Source: Myxococcales bacterium (GTDB lineage: Bacteria; Myxococcota; Myxococcia; Myxococcales; JAKAPL01). Taken from it: a stretch of DNA of 48,350 nucleotides. Location: the NCBI GenBank assembly GCA_021783235.1, contig JAJXUD010000032.1:1-48350 (forward strand). The letters run 5' to 3'. Position 1 is the stretch's first letter; the number at the start of each line of letters is the position of its first letter. Both the position numbers and the translations under genes were made by a program. A model generated the notes under the pieces. The model saw nothing but the letters and a program-made list of their open reading frames with translations. It was not told where the DNA came from and ran no database searches. Shown piece after piece: positions 23,375-27,054 of this stretch.

Positions 23375-23896
23375 TCAGCGCCTCTTCTTCTCGATCGGCT
23401 GGCCGTCGGCGCCGAGCACGACCACCCGGAGCTGCCCGGTCGACCGGATCGCCTGCCGCTGCCGCGCGCCCATCGTGTGCCGCTCGGCCCGCGTCAGCTT
23501 GCCCTGCGCGCTGGCGGCGAGCTGCGTCTCGGGGGAGGGCCGCTTGCGCCGCGCGGGGCGGATCCCGAAGTGGACGAGCTCGGCGTTCGAGGCGCCGAAC
23601 TTCAGCTTGATGAGCGTGGGCAGGTTGCGGACCCACGGCTCGGCGGCGAGCACGGCCGCCTCGAGCGCGACGAGCTTCTGGCGCGCCGCGACGAGGGCGT
23701 CCCGCTGCTCCTCGCGCCTCTCTTCGACGGCCCGGAGGAGCGAGAGCAGCGCGCTCGTCGTGACCGTCTTTCCCTCGACCTCGATCGGGCCGAAGCTCGC
23801 GCCGAAGCGGGCGAGCCCGCCGGCGAGGGCCCGGGCCCTCTTCTCGAAGCCGTGCTCGATCGCGTACTGCGCCCGGTTCCTCGCCCTTCTCGGCAT
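23375..23896 (-). CDS. Small basic helical protein next to a tandem-repeat array
   Basis: A 173-residue protein with no signal peptide, membrane segment or known catalytic motif. The N-terminus is Arg-rich (MPRRARNRAQYAIEHGFEKR). Residues about 45-90 are a long amphipathic, coiled-coil-like helix (LLRAVEERREEQRDALVAAR). A conserved-looking block follows, LKFGASNAELVHFGIRP, then a basic linker and LTRAERHTMGARQRQAIRST. The tail reads GQLRVVVLGADGQPI, then KKRR. From memory, proteins with the TR-RHTMG-RQ block occur in several copies in Myxococcota, Acidobacteria and Planctomycetes with no assigned function; I cannot verify this. GGAGG is 9 nt before the ATG. TAGAAT at 23920-23925 (minus) could be its -10 box, with the -35 region inside the last repeat unit. 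Confidence 0.75.
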   Translation of the reverse strand: MPRRARNRAQYAIEHGFEKRARALAGGLARFGASFGPIEVEGKTVTTSALLSLLRAVEERREEQRDALVAARQKLVALEAAVLAAEPWVRNLPTLIKLKFGASNAELVHFGIRPARRKRPSPETQLAASAQGKLTRAERHTMGARQRQAIRSTGQLRVVVLGADGQPIEKKRR

Positions 23897-23930
23897 CGCG
23901 CGGGACCTCCAGGGCCCCCATTCTACCTCA

Positions 23931-24182
23931 GGGTGCCGGCACCAAGGGCTCGAAGTGACCCCGGCGAGCGACGGGTGCCGGCCCCAGCGGCTCGAAGCTG
24001 CTCTGGCGCACGACAGGTGCCGGCCCCAACGGCTCGAAGTGACCCCGGCGAGCCTCGGGTGCCGGCCCCAACGGCTCGAAGCTACTCTGGTGAACGACAG
24101 GGGCCGGCCCCAACGGCTCGAGGCCGCCCCGGCGAGCGACGGGTGCCGGCACCAGCCGCTCGAAGCGCCCTTCCTCGAGCTC
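23931..24182. repeat. Six-unit 42-bp tandem array with alternating variants
   Basis: Six head-to-tail units of exactly 42 bp start at 23931, 23973, 24015, 24057, 24099 and 24141. Each has a conserved ~25-bp core (GGTGCCGGCCCCAACGGCTC then GAAG, plus strand) and a ~17-bp segment that alternates. Units 1, 3 and 5 carry the CCCCGGCGAGC form; units 2 and 4 carry the CT-CTCTGG form; unit 6 has diverged. The array begins 8 bp after the stop of the lipoprotein gene and ends 34 bp before the small basic protein gene, both on the minus strand. Because 42 is a multiple of 3, several frames stay open; none has its own start codon. Confidence 0.95.
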
Positions 24183-24190
24183 GGTGAAGC

Positions 24191-26971
24191 CTAGCGGACG
24201 GCGTGCAGCAGGCCGTCGTCCGAGACGAAGAAGACCGTGCCGTCGGGGCCGATGGCGGGGGACGAGCTGATCCGGCCGTGGGTCGCGAGCTTGAAGCGCT
24301 GCGAGCCGTCGGGGTTGACCGCGTAGAACGTGCCGTCGGCCGTGCCGAAGAAGATCGTTCCGTCGCCGCCGATGGCGACGGCCGTGTCGAGGTCGGAGGA
24401 GGTCTTGAAGGGGAAGCCCGACTTCAGGCTGCCGGTCGCGCCGTCCACCGCGTAGAGGCCGTCGACGTTGCCGACGTAGACGGTGCCGTCGGCGGCGATG
24501 GCGGGGGCCGAGTTGCCGACGTCGGCGTTGAAGAGGCCGGAGCCGGTGAAGGGGCTGAAGTTGCCGGGCGTCGTCCCCGACGGCATGCCGTTGAAGACCC
24601 AGTGCTGCTGCCCGTTCGCGGGGTCGATGGCGGCGAGCGTCGTCTGCCCGCTGTTGCCGGTCTGCGTGCCGACCTCGATCATGAGCCAGCCCGTGTGCTG
24701 CTCGTCGTAGGCGAGGTCGGAGTTCTGGAGGAAGCCGCCGCCGGAGCCGACCGTGACGCCCGCGGCGGGCCAGGCCGGGATGGCCTGGAAGCCGGACTCG
24801 GGGGCGGTGACGCCGAAGCAGAGGGCGCCGCAGCACCAGTAGCTCTGGTCGTTCTGATCGATGGCGACCGCGACCCGCTCCATGCCCCAGGGCAGGATCA
24901 GCGTGTTCGACTGGGTGAGGCTGCCGTTCGAGCCGGTCTGGTAGGTGACCGTCTGGCCGAAGTCGTCCCCGTCGAACAGAAGGCCGTCCTGGCCGATGCT
25001 GGGGTTCACGTCGAAGCCGTCGGCGCCCTGGCAGCCGCCGCTCGAGTTCCCGTTGGCGGCGTTGCTGCCGCCCGCGGCGCAGCCGGTCGGGGGGCCGATC
25101 TGGAAGAGGATCTTTCCGGTGGCGGAATCGATGTGGTAGAGCTGCGCCGGCTGCATGCTCGCCGAATCCGTCCCCGACTCGAGGTAGATCGTGCCGTCGG
25201 CGGCGAGGATCGGCGTCGCCGGGTGCTCGTCGGGGTTCGGCGCGAGCAGCGAGTCCTTCCAGAGGATGTTCCCGCCGGGGTCGACGGCGACGAAGGTGCC
25301 GTCCATCCCGAGCTGGTAGACCGTCCCGTCGGGCCCGACGATGGGGGAGTTCAGGTAGCTCGGGTTCGGGTTGACCATTCCCTCCATGCCGCCCGCGCTC
25401 TGCGGCACGGCGAGCTGCACGGTCCAGAGCTCGGTCCCCTGGTTCGCCGAGGTGTCGGCCTGGCTGCGCCCCTGGTCCGTGTTGTCGGCGTGCCACTTCG
25501 GCCAGCCGTCGGCGTAGGGGCCGCTTCCCTTGACGTAGGCGGAGAGCGGCACCGCGCCGTTCGCCCGCACCGGGTCGTTGCTCTGGAAGACGATGCGGCC
25601 CGTGTGCAGGAGCGGCGTCCCGCTGGAGGTGAGATCGCAGGTCACGGCGATGGTCGTGCTCTGCGCCGGATGGATCGTGAGGCTCGCGGCCTGGGCCGGG
25701 TCGAGGGTGAAGGCCGGGTCCGTCCCGGGGGAGAGGCCGATCCCGCTGACGGCGCAGTCCTGGGCCCCGCTGTTCGTGAGGGTCACGGACTTCGTGACCG
25801 CCGTGCCGACGCCCGGGTTGCCGAAGTTGATCGACGGCGGCTGGATCGCGAGGGTGCACGGGTTCGGCTTGCCGTTCCCGAAGAGCTGGTCGGTCGCGAG
25901 CTCGGCCGGCACCTGAGCCTGTTGTCCCCCCGCGAGGAGGGGCTGGGTGACCGCCGTCAGAACGTCCTGGTCGTTGCCGGTCTGGCTCGCCGTGTAGGAG
26001 ACGGTCGCGGTGACGCTCGCGCCCGGCAGGATCGTCTGCGGCAGCGCGAACGACTCGCTCACGGAGAAGGGGCTCTGCGGGTTCTGCGTCGTCAGGCTCG
26101 TCAGCGCGACCGCCGCGAGCCCCTGGTTCGTGAGGGTGACCTGCTGCGAGCTGTTCGTGCCCACCGGCACGTTCAGGAAGGAGACCGGGCTCGGGGAGAA
26201 GACGATCTGCCCGTCGACGCCGACGCCGCTGAGCGAGATCTGCTGCGGGTTGCAGGTCGCGCAGTCGAGGTAGGGGAGCAGCGCGCTCGCGGGGCCCTGC
26301 TGCCCGGGAGTGAAGGTGATCTGGAGGGTGAAGGAGCCATTGGCCTGAATCGGGCCGGGCGTCCCCGTCCAGCCGAAGGCCGACGCCTGGGTGCCCACGA
26401 TCGGCTGGACCTGGATCGGGCTCGAGGCGTCGGTCCCCGTGTTCGAGAAGGTCACGGCCAGGGTGGCGAAGGTCCCGACCTGGACGTTGCCGAAGTCGAG
26501 GGTCGTGGGCTTCACCCCGATGACGATGTTGCTGCCGTTGCCTCGGAGCGGCACCGTGTAGCTGGGCAGCGCGTTGCTGTTCGACTGGATGGTCAGCGTC
26601 CCGGTCTGCTCCCCGGTCTGCGCGGGCTGGAACTCGATGTAGATCGTCGCCTTCGCTCCCGCCTGGAGGCTGCTCCCGAAGGGCGCGTGGACGTTCGTGG
26701 TCTCGGTGAACGAGAACTCCGCGGGGCCGCTCTGCCCCTGGGTGAGCGAGACGGCCGAGATCGCGAGGTCGAGCGATCCCGTGTTCGTCAGGGTGACGGG
26801 GAGCACCTTGCGCTCGCCCACCGGGACGTCGCCGAAGTCCACCGGGTTCGGCGAGGCGGACGGGTGAGAGTCCTTCGAGACGAGCTGTCCCGCCCGATGC
26901 TGGCAGCCTCCGCAGCCCGGGGCGACCGCGACGAGGGTGAGCGCGAGCAGTCGCGAGATCGATCGGTTCAT
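24191..26971 (-). CDS. Lipoprotein with ASH (HYDIN-like) domains and PQQ-like beta-propeller
   Basis: A 926-residue lipoprotein; the signal ends at APGC (about Cys18). Residues about 40-490 hold four or more ASH/choice-of-anchor-D immunoglobulin-like domains, each with a PSSVxFGNVxVGT-type start (NPVDFGDVPVGE, TLDFGNVQVGT, PVSFLNVPVGT, SINFGNPGVGT). The C-terminal half is a beta-propeller of PQQ-like blades recurring as GPDGTVY, AADGTIY, GQDGLLF, AADGTVYVGNVDGLYAVD and GGDGTIFFGTADGTFYAV. It is probably an envelope binding or scaffold protein. No PQQ-enzyme catalytic residues are evident. The ATG at 26971 has GGAGG 7 nt upstream; an upstream in-frame start (27007) would spoil the signal peptide. 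The stop is followed at once by the 42-bp array. Confidence 0.85.
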   Translation of the reverse strand: MNRSISRLLALTLVAVAPGCGGCQHRAGQLVSKDSHPSASPNPVDFGDVPVGERKVLPVTLTNTGSLDLAISAVSLTQGQSGPAEFSFTETTNVHAPFGSSLQAGAKATIYIEFQPAQTGEQTGTLTIQSNSNALPSYTVPLRGNGSNIVIGVKPTTLDFGNVQVGTFATLAVTFSNTGTDASSPIQVQPIVGTQASAFGWTGTPGPIQANGSFTLQITFTPGQQGPASALLPYLDCATCNPQQISLSGVGVDGQIVFSPSPVSFLNVPVGTNSSQQVTLTNQGLAAVALTSLTTQNPQSPFSVSESFALPQTILPGASVTATVSYTASQTGNDQDVLTAVTQPLLAGGQQAQVPAELATDQLFGNGKPNPCTLAIQPPSINFGNPGVGTAVTKSVTLTNSGAQDCAVSGIGLSPGTDPAFTLDPAQAASLTIHPAQSTTIAVTCDLTSSGTPLLHTGRIVFQSNDPVRANGAVPLSAYVKGSGPYADGWPKWHADNTDQGRSQADTSANQGTELWTVQLAVPQSAGGMEGMVNPNPSYLNSPIVGPDGTVYQLGMDGTFVAVDPGGNILWKDSLLAPNPDEHPATPILAADGTIYLESGTDSASMQPAQLYHIDSATGKILFQIGPPTGCAAGGSNAANGNSSGGCQGADGFDVNPSIGQDGLLFDGDDFGQTVTYQTGSNGSLTQSNTLILPWGMERVAVAIDQNDQSYWCCGALCFGVTAPESGFQAIPAWPAAGVTVGSGGGFLQNSDLAYDEQHTGWLMIEVGTQTGNSGQTTLAAIDPANGQQHWVFNGMPSGTTPGNFSPFTGSGLFNADVGNSAPAIAADGTVYVGNVDGLYAVDGATGSLKSGFPFKTSSDLDTAVAIGGDGTIFFGTADGTFYAVNPDGSQRFKLATHGRISSSPAIGPDGTVFFVSDDGLLHAVR

Positions 26972-27054
26972 CGGGTGCCTCCGCCACGAAGAAATTTCGG
27001 GATCCATACCAGCGGCGCCCTCGAAAGGACAGCCCCTCGTGCTAAGGGTTCGCC

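Follow-up and report, generated by a model that had tools for sequence, protein, structure and literature searches.

A multi-copy gene-plus-array unit in some Myxococcota: basic protein genes with upstream tandem repeats on a 21- or 22-bp step

The window, i.e. the whole stretch of 48,350 nucleotides analysed here, comes from a Myxococcales bacterium (assembly GCA_021783235.1, contig JAJXUD010000032.1). A tandem array is located in it between a lipoprotein ORF and a gene encoding a protein of 173 aa (Table 1). As had been claimed in an earlier note on this DNA, the array occupies most of the gap between the two, which measures 294 bp from the lipoprotein stop (24191, minus strand) to the start of the 173-aa ORF. 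Tandem Repeats Finder (TRF) reported it at 23931-24165 with a period of 42 and 5.6 copies, and at 23932-24166 with a period of 84, 2.8 copies and a score of 365. Lag analysis revealed an exact register (identity of 0.75 at lag 42, chance level at lag 21), and the units are 75-88% alike without length changes. Thus, of the six exact-length 42-bp units described in the note, the equal length holds, and the count is a little too high.

Table 1. Features of the array locus in the window
Feature	Coordinates	Strand	Description	Source
Tandem array	23931..24166	.	42-bp units (= 2 x 21 bp), 5.6-5.7 copies, 84-bp higher-order repeat	TRF and lag analysis
Gene for 173-aa basic, predicted helical protein	23375..23896	-	ATG start; member of a multi-copy family	ORF list, family alignment A1
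Lipoprotein ORF	24191-27007	-	ASH/HYDIN-type Ig and PQQ propeller domains	
Shine-Dalgarno-like GGAGGT	23905..23910	-	before the ATG	read from sequence
TAGAAT	23920..23925	-	possible -10 region between array and start, weak	read from sequence

No good -35 region is present 16-18 bp before the TAGAAT, and a sigma70-type scan reported no promoter between the array and the gene. The proposal that the last array unit contains the -35 region of the promoter could thus not be upheld. The window copy, in which neither a promoter nor a terminator is recognisable, is atypical in that its array ends 29 bp from the ATG, unusually near the start. The same type of array was found at one other site only (G000:C105:11011-11232 in the same genome, G000), where it adjoins a decayed copy of the gene.

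With a pI of 11.6 the 173-aa protein is strongly basic, and structure prediction from a three-sequence alignment (pLDDT 71) suggests that it is mostly helical. Both properties had been recognised before, as had the lack of a known domain: the family gave no match to Pfam, NCBIfam, PHROGs, PADLOC or PDB sequences. In particular, no Rep initiator domain was found in Pfam, NCBIfam, PHROGs and PDB, and the domain and family libraries yielded no transposase or nuclease match. Among 20 family members none matched Y1_Tnp (tyrosine transposase), and the Y1_Tnp matches in the genome belong to other ORFs. PADLOC matches to ZorA and peptidase_U41 came from single members among 20 and were rejected as identity, and comparison of the predicted model by Foldseek gave a best PDB E-value of 3.2, which is meaningless. 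Family members combine a variable portion, predicted as helical, with a short beta hairpin (modelled with low confidence) and a block conserved at the C-terminus, T-R-x-x-R-[HG]-T-M-G-x-x-Q, with H at the variable position of the window protein. The median pI of the family is 10.3, and the C-terminal block has a pI of 11.7. Since dN/dS among the genes, which ranges from 0.2 to 1.1, is often 0.5-0.9, the protein may be weakly constrained.

The multi-copy nature of the protein, suggested in the note, was confirmed. In its own genome we found 30 matches to the single window protein and 34 to the family profile; these numbers, like all match counts given here, include fragments and decayed copies, and they are uncertain because many contigs of the family-bearing genomes (draft assemblies where contig counts are available) stop in these genes or arrays, which affects the assembly and may also have collapsed array lengths. 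Two genomes of the same taxonomic family contain 15 and 42 matches, two further genomes of the order 14 and two, and G196 contains 19. The family is present in five of the 195 genomes of the phylum that were searched, most of the phylum being without it, and a later search added three more family-bearing genomes. A scan of the genome collection gave two loci only, one in G002 and one in G196, and plasmid records, phages and viral contigs contained no relatives. Similar proteins may exist in other phyla.

A scan upstream of homologues, proposed in the earlier note as a check, was successful. Of 88 family genes from six genomes that are 370 nt or longer and have 600 bp or more of flank, 43 carry within 1 kb upstream an array with a period of k x 21 or k x 22 and a TRF score of at least 100, a simple threshold which, like those for the other array classes and the sigma54 cores described below, was set after inspection of the data. 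An array of another period was found upstream of only two of the 88 genes, and about half of the family genes are without an array within 1 kb. In the control, random 1-kb windows from family-free Myxococcota relatives, an array was present in two of 200. In an out-of-sample test, to which the reservation on thresholds does not apply, 7 of 16 genes in three later-found genomes have 21-bp-step arrays with a score of at least 100 (one top row in this set has a period of 64 with a sub-period of 21). Upstream regions contain 51 arrays in 98 kb, compared to eight, mostly with other periods, in 107 kb of downstream regions. The conjecture of the note that this would be an undescribed element, should other copies of the gene also carry arrays, thus withstood its check across genera and families, and a strain-specific, microsatellite-like expansion is not what we observe.

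The arrays have the step in common and not the sequence. Of 43 strong arrays, 39 follow a 21-bp step and four, all in G196, a 22-bp step, with few indels; altogether this period is shared by about 50 arrays in nine genomes. Higher-order repeats of 42/63/84/126 bp occur. Other repeats in the own genome have periods of 15, 18, 31, 48, 57 and 120. The unit sequence is specific to the locus: once protein identity drops under about 70%, units of different loci are hardly more similar than shuffled ones. Arrays also change faster than genes, as seen in the pairs L010/L012 (0.88 in the array versus 99% in the gene) and L031/L032 (0.81 versus 100%). Within the units, the autocorrelation at 10-11 bp that an internal 10.5-bp repeat would cause is absent. 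Significantly palindromic arrays amount to 7 of 38 under a null drawn from the genome, which is stricter than the mononucleotide shuffles it replaced, under which more symmetry appeared; with this number, uniform palindromes or hairpins are ruled out as a general rule for the arrays. A motif of 31-57 bp (GGAACAGGTCAAGACATCCCTGACA...) was noticed beside arrays of two unit types, at L018 (about -808..-753), L152 (3840-3896) and G000:C6:50010-50040. Further, at L099 (G000:C131) a tandem array with a period of 132 bp and a score of 715 is located about 0.6-1.0 kb downstream of a family fragment.

Sigma54 -24/-12 cores were detected in 18 of 99 upstream regions, while 0.15 were expected from control DNA. 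They lie 81-164 bp ahead of the gene start, and in 12 of the 18 copies a called array is present further upstream. The 3' end of the array is then 120-436 bp (mostly 120-210) upstream of the -24 element, which is a normal position for an enhancer. Only two of 29 copies in G000 have such a core; most copies of this genome have a promoter block of a different kind, and the window copy is without a core. Strong Shine-Dalgarno sites (AAAGGAGGTGA) are general in the family.

Genes for FHA-domain sigma54 activators adjoin arrays at C41 (FHA, 8.7e-6; Sigma54_activat, 1.9e-55), C113 (N-terminal part only, E 3e-5), C45 and C26, and fragments of such genes lie beside the arrays C6:3525 and C6:243892. 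At C41 and C113 the array is shared between the family gene and the divergent activator gene. At L204 (G000:C45, 7522-11410), a protein kinase gene, a 42-bp array and an FHA-sigma54 activator gene follow each other, and a family gene is located about 1 kb past the activator on the other strand; the array and the 3' part of the activator gene have a 96% copy at G000:C6:243861-244737.

Nine family genes from three genomes (L008, L014, L020, L025, L029, L035, L036, L041 and L141) have in common a structured leader RNA about 110 bp before the start (alignment A5). It comprises 27 pairs including a possible pseudoknot helix (GAAGRCC with GGYCUUC); 96% of the cells pair, compared to 32-49% when slid, and nine pairs are changed on both sides, while the pseudoknot helix shows one-sided changes only. 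The leader matched no Rfam family and could be a riboswitch-like regulator.

Near-identical copies of the unit were found at unrelated sites, for example L010/L012 (98%) and L011/L015 (95%). Recent duplicates can be aligned from about -100, or from a point within the array, to the end of the terminator hairpin; outside these limits their sequences are unrelated. No terminal repeats, target duplication or transposase were seen at those copy boundaries that we inspected. A clean empty insertion site was not found in G001/G002, where synteny is one-sided and broken at or near the unit.

Arrays also occur alone. In 859 kb of G000 we counted 16 arrays on the 21-bp step, after longer-period repeats inside coding sequence had been excluded by hand. 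Seven of them precede one of 10 family genes at a distance of up to 1.3 kb; the other nine are orphans. The pairing of array and gene that had been suggested is thus not strict. For some orphans, both the unit and the flank recur at a gene-linked array (C6:3525 with L031/L032, C6:49512 with L018, and C71:1 with L019), and some orphans lie next to genes that lack a sigma54 core. In G001 the array type of L046 is present at seven sites, whereas it is absent from G000 and from the genus-mate G002. The promoter-side flank was read at six of these sites (C23, C126, C65, C88, C31 and C97, the seventh site being C105), and at all six it matches the upstream region of the family gene. C23 is an intact gene; C88, C31 and C97 retain the sigma54-like core, C31 also the leader and the first codons, while C97 is cut by the contig end; and in C126 and C65 the -24 region runs straight into family-gene sequence, i.e. 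there is an internal deletion. Because their flanks match in this way, these orphan arrays look like decayed gene-plus-array units. Such repeats are frequent in family-bearing genomes and rare in others: there are 16 in the 859 kb of G000 and nine in 440 kb of G001/G003 that were selected to avoid the family genes known there, while four relatives lacking the family have none with a score of at least 150 in 400 kb.

As far as sequence comparison can tell, we show here a multi-copy family, arrays that precede its genes with a step of two turns, dispersal and decay of the units, and co-occurrence of family and arrays at the genome level. Judged in the same way, copies of the unit have arisen at new chromosomal sites by duplication, the arrays outpace the genes, and at least some genes decay and leave their arrays behind. 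Our literature search, which covered openly readable full text, revealed no description of such a unit; the gene-plus-array unit of some Myxococcota is apparently hitherto undescribed. The observation in the earlier note is confirmed, and its interpretation as a whole is partly supported.

The reading that we prefer, tentatively and with slightly less than even confidence, is that of a proliferating unit in which the array serves the adjacent promoter as an operator or enhancer with multiple sites, phased to two turns of the helix. The association of arrays with the family genes, the phasing, the enhancer-like distance to the sigma54 cores, the FHA-sigma54 activators next to arrays, the near-identical copies at unrelated sites, the co-occurrence between genomes and the basic character of the protein speak for it. 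The order in the unit would be array on the 21-bp step, promoter (in many copies sigma54), leader (structured in some copies), basic protein gene and terminator. The array would act as DNA and not as RNA or protein. With 21-22 bp corresponding to two turns, it would line up putative binding sites for a protein along one side of the helix, and its occupancy would switch the promoter as an operator or enhancer does. The bound factor could be the basic protein itself, resulting in self-regulation, or a nearby-encoded FHA-type sigma54 activator. As to the downstream role of the basic protein, its charge makes coating or organising of DNA the most obvious guess. Bacteria do not usually keep a strict 21/22-bp step, as seen here in nine genomes, while the sequence drifts freely, and this suggests that the turns of the DNA helix are being measured in some way. 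Against this reading stand the small number of palindromic arrays, the window copy with no promoter between array and gene, the family genes without an array, the scarcity of sigma54 cores in G000, the dN/dS values and the failure to find an empty insertion site, target duplication or transposase; further, one would not expect unrelated unit sequences at different loci if a single protein family recognised them. Since the unit brings along a gene family of its own and a record of dispersal in each genome, with a sigma54 promoter in many copies and a structured leader in some, binding, regulation and mobility can each be tested directly.

Plasmid iterons are repeated in tandem, span about two helical turns and precede the gene for a DNA-binding Rep protein; the arrays are similar to them in both step and position. 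However, the units described here exist in dozens of copies in chromosome-sized draft genomes, have up to about 26 array units, encode no Rep domain and have no matches in plasmid records.

Unlikely, but to be taken seriously, is a selfish repeat system of the REP/RAYT type, in which the basic protein or a partner promotes the copying of the array or the unit and regulation is incidental. REP/REPIN repeats and RAYT genes resemble our unit in the fast-evolving companion gene beside the repeats, the genome-specific repeat types, the dispersal of other repeats between genes and the co-occurrence of gene and repeat (PMC2817692, PMC3116915); RAYT genes evolve rapidly and correlate with their cognate REPs (PMC2817692). 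The multi-site array types restricted to one genome, such as that with seven sites in G001, the orphans sharing unit and flank with gene-linked arrays, the high dN/dS values and the co-occurrence of arrays and family between genomes are all in line with such a system. However, the family gave no transposase or nuclease match and thus differs from RAYTs in having no tyrosine transposase, its predicted fold of helices and a beta hairpin has no Foldseek match, and no terminal repeats or target duplications were seen. The layout is also different: REPs flank the companion gene on both sides, whereas long tandem arrays on a 21/22-bp step without a conserved repeat sequence are found here on the upstream side. 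Moreover, orphans with readable flanks resemble decayed whole units and not separately moved arrays.

It is tempting to speculate on a new class of self-propagating chromosomal element composed of the basic, putatively DNA-binding protein and a sequence-free, two-turn satellite array, in which the protein would read the spacing, control its own synthesis and drive or tolerate the spread. We consider this doubtful; if true, it would be a satellite-like bacterial system of fast-evolving arrays with dedicated proteins.

Alternatively, only FHA-type sigma54 activators would use the array, as their enhancer, and the basic protein would be one output of the regulon and would not bind the array. Upstream activating sequences (UAS) of sigma54 activators usually consist of a few conserved sites, placed some 80-200 bp or more ahead of a -24/-12 promoter. 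The arrays are similar to them in their distance from the -24/-12 promoters in one class of copies and in the adjoining FHA-type activators, one array being flanked by genes for an activator and a protein kinase, but they differ in their length and in their locus-specific units. We regard this explanation as improbable, since most G000 copies have a different promoter block and no sigma54 core, many arrays have no activator in the flank examined, and some orphan arrays border genes without the core; in addition, the differing units would need many activators of differing specificity.

Even less convincing is a passive satellite, generated by slippage and unequal exchange in the unconstrained spacers of a duplicating family, with the 21-bp step as a by-product. 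The concerted and fast evolution of the arrays with their higher-order repeats, the lack of a common sequence, the copies without an array and the arrays elsewhere in the genome would be explained in this way. Slippage is, however, not expected to yield one period in so many arrays from nine genomes, other repeats of the same genome have other periods, family-free relatives are without strong k x 21 arrays, and the placement upstream of one gene family is strongly non-random.

A role of the array as RNA, which had been considered in the note, is not supported. In many copies a sigma54 promoter is located between array and gene, and the array would thus be absent from that mRNA. Transcription of the array and processing into small RNAs bound by the basic protein is very improbable; some arrays are palindromic and would form hairpins, and the protein is very basic, but most arrays are not significantly palindromic and Rfam gave only sub-threshold chance hairpin matches. 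CRISPR arrays likewise lie beside a companion gene, but here spacers and a Cas-like match are absent, the 21-bp units are contiguous, and the array duplicates with the gene. Finally, coding arrays specifying 7-residue repeats can practically be dismissed: 21 bp correspond to seven codons and GC-rich frames are often open, but 22 is not a multiple of three, so the 22-bp arrays in G196 are not coding in a fixed frame and refute this explanation for themselves, many arrays contain stops in some frames, and no start-site or frame logic is common between loci.

Two observations concern possible mobile elements near the arrays. At L176 4869-5540 (G000:C6:244869-245540), a weak IS200-like transposase ORF (Pfam Y1_Tnp 0.0069, below the cut-off) adjoins a truncated sigma54 activator and an orphan array. 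In G001, a short dispersed repeat with the ends CCCGTCTTATTCAC / GTGAATAAGACGGG interrupts or borders array units at L265, L267, L269, L270, L272 and L278, in the manner of a miniature mobile element.
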